26,642 nt of DNA from positions 1 to 26,642 of the IMG/VR virus record IMGVR_UViG_3300036859_000020; one strand, written 5' to 3'. Both the position numbers and the translations under genes were made by a program. Positions within the stretch are counted from its first letter, which is position 1; every line of letters starts with the position of its first letter. Below are positions 14,281-26,642 of the stretch, in pieces. Under the pieces are notes generated by a model that was not told the origin of the DNA, made no database searches, and saw only the letters and a program-made list of their open reading frames with translations. This stretch comes from a virus.

Positions 14281-14578
14281 CTAGCAACTCCTTCAGCTTG
14301 GTTACGTCCATCACCTTCGACCAGTCGTCCAGGTTCACGCCGTACGGACGAAACTTGTCGCAGTTCGAGCACCGGATGCCCGACTCCCCACCTTCGAGCG
14401 TGACGTGATAGTCGGGTGCGTCGCAGCACGACGGCTTCCCTCCGGGGCTGTACTCTTGCGGCTTCCGGTCCGGGTGGACCGTGCGGGTTCCGTCGTCTAT
14501 CACGAACAGCGTAGTCCCCGGCGGCTTCCTGCGCACGCCGCATCGACACGTCGGGCCACCTGCGTTACTGATCGCCAT
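14267..14578 (-). CDS. Zinc-ribbon-like hypothetical protein
   Basis: A 103-residue protein from ATG 14578. Cys pairs CRC near residue 12, CC near 52 and CSNC near 70 suggest one or two zinc sites. The region between is Pro/Gly-rich (VRRKPPGTTLFVIDDGTRTV). It lies just upstream of the primase and may be a nucleic-acid-binding accessory; this is inferred only from the Cys pattern and context. Confidence 0.6.
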   Translation of the reverse strand: MAISNAGGPTCRCGVRRKPPGTTLFVIDDGTRTVHPDRKPQEYSPGGKPSCCDAPDYHVTLEGGESGIRCSNCDKFRPYGVNLDDWSKVMDVTKLKELLGGAE

Positions 14579-16694: not shown

Positions 16695-16695
16695 G

Positions 16696-16772
16696 CGAAT
16701 GGAGAGGGACTCGAACCCTCAACGACCAGTCACCAGTAGACCGGCGCTCTTGTCCGGTTGAGCTATCCATCC
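16696..16772 (-). tRNA. Full cloverleaf tRNA-like gene with 9-nt anticodon loop
   Basis: Read on the - strand: a 7-bp acceptor GGATGGA/TCCATTC (one G-U), spacer TA, a D-stem GCTC/GAGC with loop AACCGGACAA containing the conserved GG, an anticodon stem CCGGT/ACTGG, a 9-nt loop CTACTGGTG, a 5-nt variable loop TCGTT, and a T-arm GAGGG-TTCGAGT-CCCTC. CCA is not encoded. With U at the expected position the loop could present ACU, or an enlarged four-base anticodon. A 6-bp stem with a 7-nt loop TACTGGT also folds but puts A at position 33. The amino-acid identity is therefore left open. Confidence 0.75.
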
Positions 16773-21480: not shown

Positions 21481-21490
21481 GGCACAGGGC

Positions 21491-21543
21491 GGGTGAGAGG
21501 GGATTCGAACCCCTTAGTAACCGATCCAATATCAGTCCCACCC
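21491..21543 (-). ncRNA. D-armless tRNA-like element (TLS-b)
   Basis: A 53-nt element on the - strand: 7-bp acceptor GGGTGGG/CTCACCC, no D-arm, stem ACTGA/TCGGT with 7-nt loop TATTGGA, 5-nt variable loop, T-arm AGGGG-TTCGAAT-CCCCT. It is the most downstream element of the - strand arm and lies between two convergent transcription units, partly shared with the terminator region of the sigma-like gene. Confidence 0.65.
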
Positions 21544-21548
21544 TAGGG

Positions 21549-21580
21549 GCCCCGGCCGGGAAGCCGGGGCTTCTTGCTTT
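21549..21580 (+). terminator. Terminator after the sigma-like gene
   Basis: An 8-bp stem GCCCCGGC/GCCGGGGC with a 6-base loop is followed by TTCTTGCTTT. The imperfect T-run suggests moderate efficiency. Confidence 0.75.
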
Positions 21581-21704
21581 AGCCGACCAGGAAGCCGACG
21601 AGGAACGCGACCACCAGCAGGTGCCAGGTGCGCAGGGTGTACGCCTTACCGTCGTCGTTGATCGTGATGAACTCAGACTTCAGGGACTGGATGATGTGCT
21701 TCAC
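21579..21704 (-). CDS. Small C-tail-anchored membrane peptide
   Basis: A 41-residue protein from GTG 21704 (GGAGCTGATCAA upstream). A polar N-terminal half is followed by one hydrophobic helix at the extreme C-terminus (WHLLVVAFLVGFLVG). It overlaps the preceding small membrane gene and is the last protein gene of the arm. The function is unknown. Confidence 0.55.
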   Translation of the reverse strand: MKHIIQSLKSEFITINDDGKAYTLRTWHLLVVAFLVGFLVG

Positions 21705-21808
21705 TTGATCAGCTCCGCTTTCAGTTCGTAGTACAGGGTTGAATAGGTTGCGGCCATCGCGCACAGCAGCACGATGCACCCAACCAGTATGCTTTCGGTC
21801 CAGCTCAC
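21701..21808 (-). CDS. 35-residue membrane peptide
   Basis: GTG 21808 to TGA overlapping the next GTG. Residues about 6-22 (SILVGCIVLLCAMAATY) form one membrane helix with N-out polarity unknown, followed by a short charged tail. The coupled pair of tiny membrane proteins could form a complex, by analogy with other phage envelope modifiers. Confidence 0.5.
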   Translation of the reverse strand: MSWTESILVGCIVLLCAMAATYSTLYYELKAELIK

Positions 21809-22383
21809 CAGTCGGTTCCTAGCTTGCTCTCTCGCTTATAGAACTGTGCGAGGTTCTTGTTTGTGTCGACGTTCAACACACCGGTCCCGATGTTCCTCAT
21901 CAGGACCGAGGCGGGGGAAGTGGCGATGACCTCGAAGGTGAACTCCCTTTGATGTTGGGAGATGCGGTCTCCGCACGCCCACTCCGGGTTGCTCCAGGCG
22001 TCGGCGATCTGCTCGTCGGTCATCTCTACCATCTTGTTCTTGCCGTCGATCTGGACACGTCGCTTCGGACGGAACTCCTCAGCACTCTTCCAGAAGGCGG
22101 CGTCGACCGGGCCAAGCCAGCCGTAACTACCAGCCTCGCTCACCAGCCACATCTGATCGTCGCCGACGAGCTGGACTCTGTGCACCTTGCCCGAGACGGC
22201 AGACTTGATCAGCATGCCGTCCCGAACCACGATGGCGGGAGTCCTCAGATCCCTGGTCAGCATGTCATGGAACCCATCCACAATCTCGGTGGCGATCTCC
22301 TCAAGAGATCGCCCTTCATTGCGGTCGGAGTCCAGGAACTTGGCTACCGCATCGATCTGCTGTTTACGACTCGGGAGTGCTAC
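21805..22383 (-). CDS. Hypothetical protein with apparent GTA start
   Basis: The frame reads ALPSRKQQIDAVAKFLDSD, NEGRSLEEIATEIVDGFHDM and so on to KLGTDW, clearly coding throughout. A perfect AGGAGG (22398-22393) stands nine bases before GTA at 22383, and the frame is closed by TAA just upstream. The first ordinary in-frame start is GTG 22281, without a well-spaced Shine-Dalgarno site and after 34 plausible codons. I therefore give the GTA position, about 192 residues; the conservative call is 21805-22281 (158 residues). No family is recognised. Confidence 0.6.
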   Translation of the reverse strand, partial: VALPSRKQQIDAVAKFLDSDRNEGRSLEEIATEIVDGFHDMLTRDLRTPAIVVRDGMLIKSAVSGKVHRVQLVGDDQMWLVSEAGSYGWLGPVDAAFWKSAEEFRPKRRVQIDGKNKMVEMTDEQIADAWSNPEWACGDRISQHQREFTFEVIATSPASVLMRNIGTGVLNVDTNKNLAQFYKRESKLGTDW

Positions 22384-22392
22384 GGTACACCA

Positions 22393-22398
22393 CCTCCT
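22393..22398 (-). promoter_or_regulatory. Consensus ribosome binding site lacking a normal start codon
   Basis: AGGAGG on the - strand. A GTG two bases downstream is too close and opens only eight codons; GTA follows at nine bases in the coding frame. This site decides the start of the gene at 21805-22383. Confidence 0.6.
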
Positions 22399-22404
22399 TT
22401 ACTA

Positions 22405-22965
22405 CTACTTGTAGTTGTTGCGCGGACCCTCGAACGTGAACTCGTCACCCTCATACTTAGGGCGAAGCTCCGAACCAGGCCGAGAGTACTGCTCAGCGTA
22501 CTTCACCACCGGGCCGTCGTCGAGCACGATGACAGCAGGCACGCAGGTGTAGATCGTCGGGTCGTTCGACGCGTTCTTCGCGTCGATCCGAACAGTCTGA
22601 TCACCAGCGGTGACCTCCATCGACACGCCGTACTTGTAGAACGAGCCAGTGCCGTTCGATTGGGCGGAGTATGCCCACGGAGTGATCTCCAGGATCTCGT
22701 CATCCGGGTAGATCCCGATGGTTTCGGTGGCCGTTCCAGCGCCACGTACAGCGTCACCACTATGGCGAACCGTGCCGTTCCGGCTGGTGGTGCGAGCCTC
22801 CACACCCTTGGCTCCGAACGTGGCGATAGACTCGGTGGTGCCGTCCTTGTACAGGATCTCTGCCCCCGCGTCGTAGTCCGTGGCCGCAGGCCACAGGATC
22901 CGGACACGGATAGCCCTGTCCTTAGTGAGGCGGACAGAGCCCTTTTCGAGGCTGATGTGAGCCAT
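22405..22965 (-). CDS. TerD-like calcium-binding-fold protein
   Basis: A 186-residue protein from ATG 22965. The N-terminal ISLEKGSVRLTKDRAIRVRI, the central VRHSGDAVRGAGTATETIGI and the following IYPDDEILEITPWAY follow the strand order of TerD/TerZ domains, including the H-S-G-D segment. Bacterial Ter proteins are linked to envelope stress, tellurite resistance and phage inhibition. The role in the phage is unknown. The acidic calcium ligands are only partly recognisable, so it may be a divergent member. Confidence 0.65.
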   Translation of the reverse strand: MAHISLEKGSVRLTKDRAIRVRILWPAATDYDAGAEILYKDGTTESIATFGAKGVEARTTSRNGTVRHSGDAVRGAGTATETIGIYPDDEILEITPWAYSAQSNGTGSFYKYGVSMEVTAGDQTVRIDAKNASNDPTIYTCVPAVIVLDDGPVVKYAEQYSRPGSELRPKYEGDEFTFEGPRNNYK

Positions 22966-23122
22966 GCTAGCCCTTCCCTCTCTCTCCGCTTGCTGCGGAC
23001 TGGCCTGCGCGGACGGAACATGTGGTTCGACTAGGGGCCAGACACCCCACCCACGTGGCTACTTATGTTTCGCCAGCCCGTGCAGACTAGACCGCTCAGC
23101 CCCGGAGGGCTGAGACGGAAGA
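22966..23122 (-). other. 157-base gap with hairpin
   Basis: Downstream of the gene at 23123 there is a stem CTCAGCCC-TCCG-GGGCTGAG (about 23096-23115), without a T-run. The rest is GC-rich. I found neither a coding frame with a good start nor a T-arm that pairs. Confidence 0.4.
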
Positions 23123-23602
23123 TCACTCCCCTACGGCCTTACTGACGTCGATCAGGCCTTCCCGAAGCATCCACGTAACCGCGTCATGCTCCGCCTTAAC
23201 CTGATCCCAGTCGTCTTGAGCCTTGACGTACCTGATCGACGCCTTACGGGCCGCCAGGTCCATCTTGGCCAACTCTCCGACCGAGCCTTCACCCACGTGA
23301 TAGACAACAGTCTCGAAGCGGGGAGGAAGATCCTCCTTGGCCACCAGGCCAAGCATCGCTCGAACGATCAGCATCGGATCCTCAAGATCCGTGTTGTCAT
23401 CGGTGATCACACAGTACTCACCTACGTACGTGATGATCCGAGCGTACTCAACCTCGTCGTCAAGGTAGACATCGTCCACCCTGAAGTGCGCCGGGCAATC
23501 CTCACCCTCTATGCACCCGCCTTCTTCGATCACGTCGAAGGCTGCCTCAAGGATCTTCTCGGCCTCCTTCTCCGCCGAGTTCATGCCTTCATCTTCAGAC
23601 AC
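23123..23602 (-). CDS. Hypothetical acidic protein
   Basis: A 159-residue protein from GTG 23602, overlapping the upstream gene. It is Asp/Glu-rich and mixed alpha/beta, with ARIITYVGEYCVITDDNTDL in the middle and a helical C-terminus. Two Cys near residues 30 and 36 (GGCIEGEDCPAHF) are a possible partial metal site. No family is recognised. Confidence 0.6.
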   Translation of the reverse strand: MSEDEGMNSAEKEAEKILEAAFDVIEEGGCIEGEDCPAHFRVDDVYLDDEVEYARIITYVGEYCVITDDNTDLEDPMLIVRAMLGLVAKEDLPPRFETVVYHVGEGSVGELAKMDLAARKASIRYVKAQDDWDQVKAEHDAVTWMLREGLIDVSKAVGE

Positions 23603-23732
23603 TGAGCGACTCCTTCAGGGATTGGATGTCAGAGCACGTCGCAGAACAGACGAACTCCTGAGTTCGGAATCCGCACACAGTGCAACGGGGCTCATCCATC
23701 CACTGATCGTCAGCGTCCCAGTATTCGTCCAT
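23595..23732 (-). CDS. Small zinc-ribbon-like protein
   Basis: A 45-residue protein from ATG 23732 behind AAAGGG. CTVC at 17-20 and C-x3-C at 29-33 (CSATC) would bind one zinc. The N-terminus is acidic and Trp-rich (DEYWDADDQWMDEP). It begins 25 bases after a tRNA-like element. Confidence 0.55.
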   Translation of the reverse strand: MDEYWDADDQWMDEPRCTVCGFRTQEFVCSATCSDIQSLKESLSV

Positions 23733-23757
23733 GGTATTCCCTTTCCTAGTCTTGCGT

Positions 23758-23797
23758 GGGCGCCCGGGACTCGAACCCGAGTGTATGCCATCCGCCC
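23758..23797 (-). ncRNA. tRNA-like minihelix element (TLS-c)
   Basis: On the - strand: closing helix GGGCG/CGCCC, linker GATGGCATACA, T-stem CTCGGG/CCCGGG, T-loop TTCGAGT, then A. It lies 10 bases after the stop of the kinase-like gene. Unlike its relatives it is followed by ACG rather than ACT and has no stem-loop before the next gene. Confidence 0.75.
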
Positions 23798-23807
23798 TAC
23801 TGTACCA

Positions 23808-24305
23808 CTAGCAGCCGAAGTCGACGGGCACCAGGTACCCGTCCTTGTCAACCACGCAGTTCTCGTCGTGCATGTCGAGCAACCCGAAGGCCTCTTCAAG
23901 GTCTTCGAGAAGCTGGGAAAGCTCGTGCTCGTTAGGCCCTCGGTACTGGCAAAGCATGGGGCCGTCAATGTACTCGATAGCTATCACGATCTCCTTGCCC
24001 ACGCTGAACGAGCTGAACTTGGGGAGTCGGCACATCGCGGGCGGCGTCCTCTTCCAGGCTCGCGCCAGAAGGGTGACCTCTGCCCCTGACTGCCCACCAG
24101 AGTGCTCTTTGTGGTAGTGCTCAACCTTATAGGCCACCCCCTCAGGGGATAGCCACACAGAGCGAGCCATGCCCTTGCCGACGTACTTCCAGCCTTCCGG
24201 GGCGCTCCCGTCGTAGACGCACACCGGTATATCGTAACGGTCGCCAGAGTCACGAACCCACGACAGGATCTCTTGAGCGTCGCCCTCGTTGCCGATGTTG
24301 TGCAC
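23808..24305 (-). CDS. Minimal kinase-fold protein 1 (DFG end)
   Basis: A 165-residue protein from GTG 24305 (GGAGAAGTAGC upstream). Kinase-type motifs in order: Gly-rich loop VGKGMARSVW (42-51), Lys60 in VAYKVE, Glu76 in GAEVTLL, hinge-like IVIAIEYIDGP, catalytic-loop DMHDEN (144-149, like the D-x-H-x2-N of APH/choline-kinase families) and VDFG (161-164). The chain ends one residue after DFG, so the activation segment and the rest of the C-lobe are missing. It is a paralogue of 24544-25041. The substrate is unknown. Confidence 0.7.
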   Translation of the reverse strand: MHNIGNEGDAQEILSWVRDSGDRYDIPVCVYDGSAPEGWKYVGKGMARSVWLSPEGVAYKVEHYHKEHSGGQSGAEVTLLARAWKRTPPAMCRLPKFSSFSVGKEIVIAIEYIDGPMLCQYRGPNEHELSQLLEDLEEAFGLLDMHDENCVVDKDGYLVPVDFGC

Positions 24306-24306
24306 G

Positions 24307-24456
24307 CTACTTCTCCTCAAGCCTGCGCTGAGCGTTGCGGATGACCTTGATGAACGCCTGAAGCGCTCTGTCCTCAACTTCGTAGCCAGGAGTGTACCAA
24401 TGGCTACGCTCCTCACTCTCAGCCTCTTCAGCCAGGAGTTGCAGTAGTTCATCCAT
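24307..24456 (-). CDS. Small acidic helical protein
   Basis: A 49-residue protein from ATG 24456 behind a perfect AGGAGG. It is helical and Glu-rich (DELLQLLAEEAESEERSHWY at the start; RALQAFIKVIRNAQRRLEEK at the end). Its stop precedes the kinase-like GTG by one base, so the two are coupled; it might be a partner of the kinase-like protein. In-frame codons upstream belong to the tRNA-like element and are not taken as protein. Confidence 0.55.
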   Translation of the reverse strand: MDELLQLLAEEAESEERSHWYTPGYEVEDRALQAFIKVIRNAQRRLEEK

Positions 24457-24472
24457 GATTCCTCCTGTAAGA

Positions 24473-24493
24473 AGAGCGCCGTGAGGGCGCTCT
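24473..24493 (-). promoter_or_regulatory. Stem-loop following TLS-d
   Basis: An 8-bp stem AGAGCGCC/GGCGCTCT with a 5-base loop starts three bases (ACT) after TLS-d and lies upstream of the AGGAGG of the 49-residue gene. It is near-identical to the stem at 25586-25606. Confidence 0.75.
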
Positions 24494-24496
24494 AGT

Positions 24497-24536
24497 GGGT
24501 GCCCAGGACTCGAACCTAGGTGTATGCCGTTCACCC
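24497..24536 (-). ncRNA. tRNA-like minihelix element (TLS-d)
   Basis: On the - strand: closing helix GGGTG/CACCC, linker AACGGCATACA, T-stem CCTAGG/CCTGGG (one G-U), T-loop TTCGAGT, then ACT. It begins seven bases after the stop of the second kinase-like gene. Confidence 0.8.
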
Positions 24537-24543
24537 CGTGGAG

Positions 24544-25041
24544 CTAGGCTCCCAGGTCGATCGGTACGATTTGCTTGTTGATCTCGTCCACCGCGACGTT
24601 GCTAGCGTGCATGTCGCTCAGGTTGACGGCGTTGAGCATCTCGGTCTTCGCCGTCCAGTAGTCCCGGCCGCTATCGCCGTACATCGAGAACTCGCGAAGA
24701 AGCTTCTCGAAGTACTCCATGGCGATAACAGCCTTGCCGTCCAGCCGGAAAAGCTGGTAGCGGGGGAGACGGCAGCCCTTGGGCAGCCTGGTGAACATCA
24801 GCTTGCGGATGTTCTGCGCCTCCCCCTTGTTCGACTGCCACCCGTCGCGGTAGTTGTGCTCCACCTTGTAGACCACGCTGGTTTCGACGTGAAGGTAGAC
24901 CTGCCGATAGCAACCGGCGCCGAGACGCCTCCAGCCTTCAGGGGCTTCCCTCCGGCGATCGTTGTCGCCGGAGTAGTACTCCCGCATGACGTCCAGATAC
25001 CAATCACGGATGAAGCGTGCGTTCTCTTCATTGCCGAGCAT
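24544..25041 (-). CDS. Minimal kinase-fold protein 2 (DLG end)
   Basis: A 165-residue paralogue of the protein at 23808, starting at ATG 25041 behind AGGAG. It has LGAGCYRQVYL (40-50), Lys59 in VVYKVE, Glu74 in KGEAQNI, hinge VIAMEYFEKL, DMHASN (143-148) and IDLG (161-164), and ends one residue later. Length and motif positions match protein 1 almost exactly, although sequence identity looks low, so the shortened architecture is conserved. All residues needed for nucleotide and metal binding are present; activity and target are unknown. Confidence 0.7.
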   Translation of the reverse strand: MLGNEENARFIRDWYLDVMREYYSGDNDRRREAPEGWRRLGAGCYRQVYLHVETSVVYKVEHNYRDGWQSNKGEAQNIRKLMFTRLPKGCRLPRYQLFRLDGKAVIAMEYFEKLLREFSMYGDSGRDYWTAKTEMLNAVNLSDMHASNVAVDEINKQIVPIDLGA

Positions 25042-25064
25042 GGTTTCTCCTGTAGTCCAGTTCA

Positions 25065-25085
25065 GGGGCGCCCCTCGGCGTCCCC
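25065..25085 (-). promoter_or_regulatory. Stem-loop following TLS-e
   Basis: The stem GGGG-(A)-CGCC with GGCG-CCCC and loop GAGG starts three bases (ACT) after TLS-e and is upstream of the ribosome site of kinase-like gene 2. Confidence 0.7.
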
Positions 25086-25088
25086 AGT

Positions 25089-25128
25089 GCCAGCCTGGGA
25101 CTCGAACCCAGGTGTGTGCCGCTCTGGC
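25089..25128 (-). ncRNA. tRNA-like minihelix element (TLS-e)
   Basis: On the - strand: closing helix GCCAG/CTGGC, linker AGCGGCACACA, T-stem CCTGGG/CCCAGG, T-loop TTCGAGT, then ACT. The closing helix is wholly different from TLS-d and TLS-f yet pairs perfectly, a five-position compensated change. Confidence 0.82.
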
Positions 25129-25136
25129 TGCCCATC

Positions 25137-25568
25137 TCACCACTTCGTCTCTGTCCAGCCGTCTTGGTAGGGACGGAAGAGCGGACCGAGTTCGGTGTAG
25201 TCGACGTACATGTACTGCCCGACCATCTCTGTGGTCCCCTTGGTCAGCTCGCTGGCCTCTTCGATCTTCTCGATCACCCGCTTGCGAGTCTTCCCGGACG
25301 ACACGAAGTCGTCCACAAAAACCCAGCGCTGACCAAGCTCGCCGAGAAGCCTGCCCTTGCCGTGATGGGAGTCGTCCGTCTCCTTGCGGATCAGGACGAA
25401 CTTCTTACCCATAGCGAGAGCAAGAGCAGGGATGACGACACTGCCGGAAAAGCCGGTGCCGACCAACGTGTCGAAGTCGACGCCGTACAGGTCCTTCTTC
25501 GCACGATCGATAACGCTCTCCAGGTTGAAGAGAGCGTTATCCATGTAGTACGTGCTGAACGTGGTCAT
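25137..25568 (-). CDS. Phosphoribosyltransferase-like protein
   Basis: A 143-residue protein. The PRPP-binding loop RWVFVDDFVSSGKTRKRV (about 81-98) gives the V-D-D-x3-(S/T)-G-K/x-T signature of type I phosphoribosyltransferases; an N-terminal GTGFSGSVV (37-45) is the usual pyrophosphate loop. I chose ATG 25568, six bases after GGAGG, over ATG 25583, which overlaps that site. The base or nucleoside acted on is unknown. Roles in nucleotide salvage or modification are possible. Confidence 0.75.
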   Translation of the reverse strand: MTTFSTYYMDNALFNLESVIDRAKKDLYGVDFDTLVGTGFSGSVVIPALALAMGKKFVLIRKETDDSHHGKGRLLGELGQRWVFVDDFVSSGKTRKRVIEKIEEASELTKGTTEMVGQYMYVDYTELGPLFRPYQDGWTETKW

Positions 25569-25585
25569 CGCGTTCCTCCACATAA

Positions 25586-25606
25586 AGAGCGTCCCTGCGA
25601 CGCTCT
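25586..25606 (-). promoter_or_regulatory. Stem-loop following TLS-g
   Basis: An 8-bp stem AGAGCGTC/GACGCTCT with loop GCAGG starts four bases (ACTG) after TLS-g. Compared with the stem at 24473-24493 it shows a compensated pair change (C-G to T-A). Confidence 0.75.
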
Positions 25607-25610
25607 CAGT

Positions 25611-25650
25611 GCCCGTCTACGGCTCGAACGTAGATGCCTGCCTGTCGGGC
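25611..25650 (-). ncRNA. tRNA-like minihelix element (TLS-g)
   Basis: On the - strand: closing helix GCCCG/CGGGC, linker ACAGGCAGGCA, T-stem TCTACG/CGTAGA, T-loop TTCGAGC, then ACT. It begins seven bases after the lipoprotein stop. The stems share little sequence with the other copies, but all dimensions are the same. Confidence 0.8.
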
Positions 25651-25657
25651 TACCCAA

Positions 25658-25876
25658 CTACCGCTTGCGGCTGCTGGTGGTGCCACCAAAGCTCTTCGTG
25701 GGCGCCTTGGGCGCCACGTTAGGCTTCGGGTTCGGCTTGTGTGTCTTCGAGTGCGAGCCTCCGGGTACGTGGTAGTACTTGTCTCCGTCGGTCTCGCACG
25801 CAGCGATCAGAAACACGAGCAGCACCACCACTATCACGAAGCTGATGCTGGCTACTGCTACGTTCTTCTCACTCAT
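25658..25876 (-). CDS. Small lipoprotein
   Basis: A 72-residue protein. Residues 8-26 are a hydrophobic signal (VASISFVIVVVLLVFLIAA) ending in the lipobox I-A-A-C with C27. The mature part is polar, His/Lys/Pro-rich (SHSKTHKPNPKPN) and basic at the end. I chose ATG 25876, six bases after AAAGGG, rather than ATG 25882. It would be lipid-anchored outside the membrane. Superinfection exclusion is a common job of such phage lipoproteins, but that is only a guess here. Confidence 0.65.
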   Translation of the reverse strand: MSEKNVAVASISFVIVVVLLVFLIAACETDGDKYYHVPGGSHSKTHKPNPKPNVAPKAPTKSFGGTTSSRKR

Positions 25877-25891
25877 GTCCATCCCTTTCTA

Positions 25892-25911
25892 GGCTCGGCA
25901 CTTGTCGAACC
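25892..25911 (-). promoter_or_regulatory. Stem-loop following TLS-f
   Basis: The stem GGTTCG/CGAGCC with an 8-base loop starts three bases (ACT) after TLS-f. It contains a G-U pair that exists only in the - strand RNA, which supports RNA-level function on this strand. Confidence 0.6.
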
Positions 25912-25914
25912 AGT

Positions 25915-25954
25915 GGGTGTCAAGGACTCGAACCTTGATGTATGCCGTTCACCC
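25915..25954 (-). ncRNA. tRNA-like minihelix element (TLS-f)
   Basis: On the - strand: closing helix GGGTG/CACCC, linker AACGGCATACA (identical to TLS-d), T-stem TCAAGG/CCTTGA, T-loop TTCGAGT, then ACT. The T-stem differs from TLS-d at several positions with full compensation. A separate hairpin GGGGC-GATGACTA-GCCCC lies immediately 5'. Confidence 0.82.
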
Positions 25955-26011
25955 TGGGGCTAGTCATCGCCCCTTACATCCCCCGCCAGGACAAGTCACC
26001 AGCGGGGAAAG

Positions 26012-26404
26012 CTACCAATTGATTTCGCCCTTAAGGGTCTGCTCGGCCACGCTGAGGGCATCCCCCCACGTGTGACCGCTGTCCTGCGCCCTCTGCGCCG
26101 CACGCAGAGCGTACCGAGCCCTGCTGCTCGACTTGAGCACCTCGAACCCTTCCAGGCGTTCGAGAAGCTCATCAGCGGCCACGGCAGTACCGAAGTTCGC
26201 CGAGTCGCCGAACTCAAGGTGATGCAGCTCCACCCCGAGGTTCGTCAAGAACTTCGCGACAATGCAGTCGGGCTCGCCATTCTTGACGTAAAAACAACCG
26301 CTGCCGTAGTCGGTGGCGACGCGCTGATACACGAAACCTTCACCAAACTCATCCACAACAGCCTCGAGGCCGGTGAGGACGCTGTCGGCGGTGATCTCGA
26401 TCAT
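26012..26404 (-). CDS. Hypothetical protein
   Basis: A 130-residue alpha/beta protein. I chose ATG 26404, seven bases after GGGAG; an ATG two codons upstream is too close to that site, and the frame continues further upstream only through tRNA-like and stem-loop sequence. The N-terminal half has strands (GEGFVYQRVATDYGSGCFYV) and the C-terminal half helices, with W near the end (HTWGDALSVAEQTLKGEINW). No family is recognised. Confidence 0.6.
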   Translation of the reverse strand: MIEITADSVLTGLEAVVDEFGEGFVYQRVATDYGSGCFYVKNGEPDCIVAKFLTNLGVELHHLEFGDSANFGTAVAADELLERLEGFEVLKSSSRARYALRAAQRAQDSGHTWGDALSVAEQTLKGEINW

Positions 26405-26425
26405 GTCCATACTCCCTTTTCCTAC

Positions 26426-26444
26426 GGCGTGCTTGATGCACGCC
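26426..26444 (-). promoter_or_regulatory. Stem-loop following TLS-h
   Basis: A perfect 7-bp stem GGCGTGC/GCACGCC with loop ATCAA lies seven bases after TLS-h and upstream of the AAAAGGGAG ribosome site. Confidence 0.7.
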
Positions 26445-26451
26445 TTGGAGT

Positions 26452-26500
26452 GGGCGGGGAGGGAGTTGCACCCTCCGTCAGGCTTAGAACCTGTCCGCCC
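26452..26500 (-). ncRNA. D-armless tRNA-like element with CUA-containing loop (TLS-h)
   Basis: A 49-nt element on the - strand: closing helix GGGCGG/CCGCCC, one base, stem CAGG/CCTG with 7-nt loop TTCTAAG, two bases, T-stem GGAGGG/CCCTCC and loop TGCAACT (G where position 55 is normally U). Numbered as an anticodon loop, U33 is followed by CUA, the amber-reading anticodon. It begins five bases after the preceding stop. Confidence 0.6.
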
Positions 26501-26505
26501 TGTAC

Positions 26506-26642
26506 TCAATCCTCGTAGGCACTCGCCTTGTGGCGAGTGCCGTGTAGGTAGGTGTCGCACGTCCAGCACTGTGACGTGCTGTACGGCTCGCTCTCGTCTC
26601 CCAGGAAGACCGTCAAGCCCCCTGGAATAGCTTCCAGGGGCT
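26506..26642 (-). CDS. Partial gene entering from the right edge
   Basis: An open frame of 44 codons to TGA 26508-26506, ending CWTCDTYLHGTRHKASAYED. The C-x2-C suggests a small metal site. The edge sequence is a near-perfect 11-bp hairpin (26617-26642) like the stem-loops before other genes of this arm, so the true start may lie just after it, for example at TTG in GGGGGCTTGACGG. The 5' end is not visible. Confidence 0.5.
   Translation of the reverse strand, partial: PLEAIPGGLTVFLGDESEPYSTSQCWTCDTYLHGTRHKASAYED

Follow-up and report, generated by a model that had tools for sequence, protein, structure and literature searches.

Several RNAs borrow the shape of transfer RNA (tRNA). In mitochondrial tRNA punctuation, tRNA-shaped RNA lies between co-directional genes, right after their stop codons. 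The mascRNA-menRNA family (MALAT1/MEN beta, Rfam RF01684) is a tRNA-like fold inside a longer RNA that is cut by ribonuclease P (RNase P) and RNase Z. Turnip yellow mosaic virus (TYMV) and its relatives carry a tRNA mimic with a pseudoknot that RNase P can cleave. The tRNA-like domain of transfer-messenger RNA (tmRNA) retains the upper tRNA half with a T-arm elbow and no anticodon (PMC3929946). RNase P also cuts phage and mRNA sequences that are not tRNAs, including the C4 RNA of phages P1 and P7, M3 RNA, polycistronic mRNAs, tRNA-like structures and model hairpins of acceptor stem, T-stem and T-loop (PMC11143913). Here we analyse a 26.6-kb tailed-phage contig, IMG/VR record IMGVR_UViG_3300036859_000020 (positions 1 to 26,642; hereafter the window), in which a run of consecutive small genes on the - strand (21.4-26.6 kb) holds a tRNA-like element in five of its gaps. 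The element is a cis RNA of about 43 nt, predicted to fold into the upper half of a tRNA, with no anticodon arm: a 5-bp helix, P1, would stack on a T-arm of 6 bp and T-loop, with an 11-nt linker between them. Many viruses of soil bacteria carry this conserved tRNA-shaped element, which lacks an anticodon arm, in gaps between small genes.

The phage element differs from each of these systems. Unlike mitochondrial punctuation, it spans 40 nt, has neither an anticodon arm nor an encoded CCA and makes no tRNA, and its cleavage is something we infer. mascRNA-menRNA is a single-copy element of about 60 nt in animal nuclear long non-coding RNA, and RF01684 matched none of the five core copies even at an E value of 10. 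tmRNA ends in a 3' CCA, accepts alanine and contains a tag reading frame, whereas the phage element has no CCA and no G3:U70 alanine signal, has a 5-bp acceptor and two extra pairs (14:29 and 15:28, numbered from the first base of P1), and is repeated in mRNA. Plant-virus structures stand at the 3' ends of RNA virus genomes, end in CCA and use another pseudoknot. The RNase P sites of C4, M3 and mRNAs are individual, whereas the phage elements form a repeated, covarying family across many phages. Rfam 15 yielded only chance-level matches to the core copies, also at permissive thresholds. We rejected a canonical tRNA as well: in the window, ARAGORN and Rfam (RF00005) detect only a tRNA-Gln at 16695-16772, and an 11-nt linker leaves no room for the anticodon arm of a cloverleaf.

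The five core copies share one exact geometry. An initial annotation, made from the letters alone, had proposed a family of seven elements, five of them with identical dimensions. Those five hold up: each has a 5-bp helix, 11-nt linker, 6-bp T-stem and 7-nt T-loop (TTCGAGT or TTCGAGC), all on the - strand. In each, unpaired R-C follows the closing strand of the 5-bp helix. A descriptor of this geometry, with the linker fixed at 11 nt, matched five times, whereas 300 dinucleotide shuffles of the whole window averaged 0.003 matches and never had more than 1. All five carry R-C and the linker contacts 7:13, 14:29, 15:28 and 9:24 described below, and covariance model R1 gives them 59-68 bits (E 1e-15 to 3e-18). 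The other two listed elements, at 26452 (9.1 bits) and 21491 (15.8 bits), do not score as members of R1, and we treat the former as a related variant. Because the five copies belong to the 122 seed sequences of R1, independent support comes from hundreds of further copies in other phages.

Covariation across these copies points to a tRNA elbow. The consensus reads A0 / GNNNG A n Y GG CA n X C A NNNNGG TTCGAG X' CCNNNN CNNNC / R C (T/G). Among 122 sequences, 99.7% of cells are paired, with 512 compensatory cells against 150 in shuffles and a covariation score of 0.837 against 0.19; sliding the partners by 1-3 columns destroyed the signal. The scan that found the copies required pairing in P1 and P2, so the case rests on four contacts that it did not require. 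Pair 7:13 is paired in 97.5% of copies and Watson-Crick in 254/260, in all four types. Pair 14:29 is paired in 99%, with 252/260 in the four Watson-Crick types. A mutual-information scan of all columns, with no structure assumed, ranks both at the top among the stem pairs. Pair 15:28 is C:G in 226 copies and G:C in 2, and Predator adds more G:C copies. At 9:24, 213 copies have G:U, 14 have A:G and 1 has G:C, and A:U and G:G are absent. All 14 A:G copies sit in 12 loci that also hold G:U copies, so the switch arose repeatedly. A later pattern search for the A:G form fixed both partners; it shows that this form is common and is excluded from the covariation evidence.

The swap at 9:24 equates the GG/AG of the element with tRNA positions 18-19. 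On this covariation, 9:24 is the counterpart of tRNA G18-Ψ55 (18:55) and 10:25 that of 19:56, the latter being G:C in 228/228, with letters 10 and 25 among those used to score copies. The elbow features of tRNA, a TTCRA T-loop fold and the G18-Psi55 and G19-C56 contacts, are all found as judged by covariation. The predicted linker is a D-arm cut to one pair (7:13), its loop YGGCA docked in the T-loop via 9:24 and 10:25. We read pairs 14:29 and 15:28 as a pseudoknot that also ties the linker to the T-loop, with loop bases 59-60 serving these two extra pairs. The acceptor-on-T-arm minihelix of the initial annotation was thus right in being tRNA-like and too simple, because the linker forms a folded mini D-arm docked into the T-loop and adds the tertiary contacts of an elbow. 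Pairs G-U outnumber A-C by 85 to 11 on the coding strand, an excess that argues for RNA rather than DNA and that is partly biased, since the scan accepted G-U and not A-C.

The ends of the element are conserved too. G1:C40 occurs in 242/260 copies (G1 in 93%), position 41 is A or G in 277/285 (97%) and position 42 is C in 273/285 (96%). Position 43 is C in only 24/285 and mostly T or G, so that only the RC of an RCC motif is present; no CCA is encoded. A second hairpin lies within the next 40 nt in 183 of the 285 copies, against 70 in shuffles. It starts at positions 43-46 in 126 (19 in shuffles), a register that leaves R41-C42 free.

The family is widespread among phages of actinobacteria. 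Used as a query, the 5.2-kb element region brought up short similar stretches, mostly at elements, from phage records of Streptomyces (61) and Mycobacterium (10). Searching with the consensus gave 849 places spread over 145 phage records (113 of Streptomyces, 24 of Mycobacterium, 6 of Gordonia and 2 uncultured), and a variant query added one Actinomyces phage. At least 119 stretches in IMG/VR match the pattern. When both helices had to be perfect and linkers of 4-59 nt were allowed, the linker was exactly 11 nt in 300 matches and any other length occurred at most 11 times, among the matches listed for the IMG/VR loci. Both helices are present in 129 of 144 distinct exact pattern matches, although the pattern does not require P1. 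R1 matched all 50 viral records that were re-searched with it, up to 15 times per record. The search of related phages proposed in the initial annotation thus found structure-preserving homologues with compensatory changes at their gene gaps, the very thing whose absence was to count against the idea.

Bacterial genomes hold few copies. A specific pattern matched 4 contigs in the whole GTDB set, a pattern tuned to the actinophage type that would miss, for example, the TCCCG-starting copies of AT-rich contigs. R1, for which only a few candidates were scored in each genome, matched 7 of 394 Actinomycetes genomes, and no credible match turned up in plasmids. Given so few matches, the family looks essentially phage-borne, and integrated elements probably carry it too. 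On the Actinocatenispora rupis chromosome (L262, 6639-9817), about a dozen copies lie between very small genes with an FtsK/SpoIIIE-like gene nearby, which we read as an integrated element. Five AT-rich contigs (L021, L050, L069, L072, L095) have one or a few copies each in the form TCCCGA..GGCA..CGGGA-ACA, without a second hairpin.

Copies occupy gene gaps on the transcribed strand. We used seven annotated phages (Endor2, Lika, phiHau3, Izzy, Predator, xhp1 and Aleemily) with 43 model matches, of which 42 are intergenic and co-directional with the genes; one of these 42, in Endor2 at 47901, precedes the first annotated gene. The remaining copy, in Predator (L251, 14206), overlaps a gene only through a probably mis-set start. 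In that gene, gp49 (L251, 14169-14627), the annotated start precedes the element; the likelier start is the in-frame ATG that follows the hairpin, at 14292. In the seven phages, copies lie 3-43 nt after the stop codon, apart from outliers at 82 and 107, and over half lie within 13 nt of it; the distance from element to next start is 22-67 nt, mostly 30-50, with one of 81. Copies fill 41 of 53 same-strand gaps of at least 60 nt, in regions chosen around copies. Among 166 non-redundant copies, stop codons are most frequent 8-10 nt ahead of the element. In Likavirus (L128), a conserved gtgtgNNaccttcgca lies just upstream of the copies at 45495, 46220, 47985 and 48737; it may be the R4-type stoperator mentioned in PMC10276819.

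We tentatively propose, from these sequence features, that the elements mark early polycistronic phage mRNA for cleavage by host RNase P, the best supported of the mechanisms considered and one to which we give slightly less than even credence. RNase P is the suggested reader because three features go beyond shape: G1:C40, the elbow contacts, and an R41-C42 that the position of the second hairpin leaves unpaired. The specificity domain of RNase P stacks on elbow contacts (PMC4919913), and an RCC contact decided RNase P cleavage of a pseudoknot RNA (PMC12710915). The copies offer a coaxial stack of 11-12 bp, G1, R41 and C42, with only RC of the RCC. In the proposed mechanism, RNase P would read the elbow, the stack and the unpaired R-C-N after the helix, which is discriminator-like and would pair with the RNase P L15 loop, and the cut would fall 5' of G1. 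The upstream gene would gain a 3' end shortly after its stop codon, and the downstream gene a leader with its 5' monophosphate inside a helix, followed by the second hairpin, ribosome-binding site (RBS) and start codon. The proposal supposes transcription of each gap, the cut itself and an effect on mRNA stability or relative expression. RNase Z cleavage is possible as well; it may follow R41, making the second hairpin the new 5' end. A CC after the discriminator can inhibit RNase Z, and the scarcity of C at position 43 would mean that it is avoided. The lack of an encoded CCA also suits RNase Z, but the hairpin follows closely. For the processing signal suggested by the initial annotation, then, structures on the transcribed strand, tRNA likeness at the level of the elbow and gene-gap position lend support, and cleavage by RNase P or RNase Z is the part we can only propose.

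Several observations weigh against the RNase P proposal. At 11 bp in the common class (12 in a long-D-arm class described below), the stack is one short of canonical tRNA. Copies occur in tandem with no long gene separating them (L011), something that punctuation by itself leaves unexplained. The Endor2 copy at 47901 has no annotated gene before it, copy-free gaps occur in the same operons, and the proposal leaves the neighbourhood of the A. rupis copies unexplained. Strong conservation of the element would also suit a protein-binding or stability role. Four copies lie about 110-120 nt apart in L011 (6616-7002), and Amycolatopsis antarctica (L263, 7881-8272) repeats this spacing. The spacers are GC-rich and full of GGC-type short repeats, with no evident gene in L011.

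The tRNA-like fold and hairpin might instead form an uncleaved leader, a compact 5' block that stops 5'-3' or 3'-5' exonucleases or insulates the RBS with no tRNA enzyme involved. Spacing from element to start is more regular than spacing from the stop, the following hairpin keeps a fixed register, the L011 tandem copies recall stacked exonuclease blocks and the position of the Endor2 copy fits. A plain hairpin would serve that end, however, and the idea gives no reason for a conserved true elbow (9:24, 10:25) and R-C; the start spacing may merely reflect room for hairpin and RBS. We consider such a leader unlikely, though worth weighing. Less likely again is that the elements are themselves the product, mini-tRNA-like small RNAs released to act in trans, for instance by decoying SmpB, EF-Tu, the CCA-adding enzyme or the defence and toxin nucleases that target tRNA. 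Multi-copy arrays with little between them (L011) and the resemblance to the SmpB- and EF-Tu-binding tRNA-like domain of tmRNA (PMC3929946) speak for this; the tie of copies to gene gaps, a following hairpin and an RBS speaks against it, as do the absence of an anticodon loop for anticodon nucleases, of an encoded CCA and of a conserved G3:U70 for alanylation (3:38 is G-C or C-G in 250/260).

Two further explanations are less probable still. Two adjacent structures recurring along early operons, always on the transcribed strand, would suit RNA-borne antitermination sites like phage HK022 put, in which a nascent fold and hairpin modify RNA polymerase along a long early operon. The put sites of HK022 are few and near promoters, though. 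Intrinsic terminators and sigma-70 promoters in the element region do not exceed chance (only two terminator-like sites, below shuffles), and antitermination gives no reason for elbow contacts or R-C, so we rate it highly improbable. Still harder to credit is a role at the DNA level, with the copies as boundary repeats that favour recombination and the exchange of gene cassettes: the small accessory genes that they separate do differ from phage to phage, and near-identical repeats could invite homologous recombination, but RNA is indicated by compensatory covariation, the G-U excess over A-C, fixed orientation to transcription and the constant register of the second hairpin. Decayed tRNA genes or chance, suggested by tRNA-like T-loop and D-loop letters and by an Endor2 copy called tRNA-Arg in GenBank, have next to no chance of being right and are refuted for the five core copies by hundreds of copies of the same 40-nt length and register, tertiary covariation and the 0.003 matches expected in window shuffles. 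That Endor2 call (L127, 44378-44460) comprises the element and upstream sequence, overlaps a coding sequence and is a probable misannotation; in phage Sitrop a tRNA-Arg annotation likewise lies under the match.

More broadly, and with somewhat less assurance than for the RNase P signal itself, we suggest a new RNA family of actinobacteriophages and further viral contigs, in which anticodon-less elbows would recur as cis signals through which host RNase P receives the polycistronic early mRNA one gene at a time, each gene getting a structured leader. Every ingredient has precedent, in tRNA-like structures and tRNA punctuation; what appears new is the family, together with its contacts and its use in gap after gap. 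Literature searches that covered open-access papers found no earlier description of it, which does not prove priority. The fold is compact (40 nt), widespread and marked by clear tertiary covariation, lies outside Rfam 15 and, in the records examined, is annotated only as an occasional false tRNA. It lets one ask directly whether DNA phages use tRNA enzymes for bulk mRNA cutting, and laboratory systems exist in Streptomyces coelicolor with Endor2 or phiCAM and Mycobacterium smegmatis with Predator. It would also supply a minimal natural elbow for RNase P structural work and mark gene boundaries and start codons in phage annotation.

The window copies, all on the - strand, illustrate the arrangement, and six of the seven listed elements do lie between a stop codon and the next gene, as first annotated. 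The copy at 23755..23799 (core 23758-23797) reads GGGCG gatggcataca CTCGGG ttcgagt CCCGGG CGCCC, with A before and ACG after; stop TAG (23808-23810) lies 10 nt before it and an ATG 22 nt downstream (23732), without a second hairpin. The next (24494..24538, core 24497-24536; GGGTG aacggcataca CCTAGG ttcgagt CCTGGG CACCC ACT) follows TAG (24544-24546) by 7 nt and directly adjoins a second hairpin (24474..24492, GAGCGCC-CTCAC-GGCGCTC), then RBS aggagg and ATG 24456. The copy at 25086..25130 (core 25089-25128; GCCAG agcggcacaca CCTGGG ttcgagt CCCAGG CTGGC ACT) lies 8 nt after TGA (25137-25139), with a hairpin at 25065..25085 (GGGGACGCC-GAGG-GGCGCCCC) and ATG 25041. That at 25608..25652 (core 25611-25650; GCCCG acaggcaggca TCTACG ttcgagc CGTAGA CGGGC ACT) has the tertiary pair in its G14:C29 form; TAG (25658-25660) precedes it by 7 nt, and a hairpin (25586..25606, AGAGCGTC-GCAGG-GACGCTCT) and ATG 25568 follow. 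The last (25912..25956, core 25915-25954; GGGTG aacggcataca TCAAGG ttcgagt CCTTGA CACCC ACT) stands 57 nt after TAG (26012-26014), before a hairpin at 25892..25911 (GGTTCG-ACAAGTGC-CGAGCC) and ATG 25882 or 25876.

The element at 26452 (26449..26502, - strand) represents the long-D-arm class, which we take to be a related variant outside R1. It reads A GGGCGG (A CAGG TTCTAAG CCTG AC) GGAGGG tgcaact CCCTCC CCGCCC ACT, a layout of 6-bp P1, 18-nt linker, 6-bp T-stem and T-loop TGCAACT. Its surroundings are those of the core copies: TGA (26506-26508) 5 nt before, A before the helix, ACT after, then a hairpin (26426..26444, GGCGTGC-ATCAA-GCACGCC), an RBS and an ATG near 26410. A loose geometric scan found near-copies with the same 6/18/6 layout in L014 and L037. 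They have a different inner hairpin, keep the AG in the loop and T-loop TGCAACT, and are likewise followed by a hairpin, RBS and ATG. No viral contig matched a pattern made specifically for the hairpin of 26452. We count it as related because of these shared surroundings and near-copies, and keep it apart because, among other reasons, it lacks pair 15:28. An amber-suppressor-like D-armless tRNA (anticodon-like CTA) was considered and rejected, since the relatives change the loop letters and keep AG and the TGC T-loop. The inner hairpin with its anticodon-like loop reads better as a putative D-arm whose AG would contact the TGC T-loop.

A possible further tRNA-like element lies at 21491 (21488..21545, - strand), with a 7-bp helix, a 22-nt linker with a mini D-arm GAT-ATTGG-ATC, a 5-bp T-stem, loop TTCGAAT and trailing GCC. 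It scores 18.7 bits against Rfam mascRNA-menRNA, below the gathering score of 42.5, and no homologue turned up, though no search was aimed at it. It closes the - strand operon at its 3' end, preceded by a strong hairpin and with no further gene on that strand, and may be a decayed tRNA or a terminal element.

Other genes of the window include a major head protein, a DnaB-like helicase and ThyX. The tRNA-Gln (ctg) gene at 16695-16772 is a regular one, on the - strand and without encoded CCA. Two genes of PHROG 28435, of unknown function (23808-24302 and 24544-25041), flank the 24497 copy, and a phosphoribosyltransferase-like gene occupies 25137-25568.

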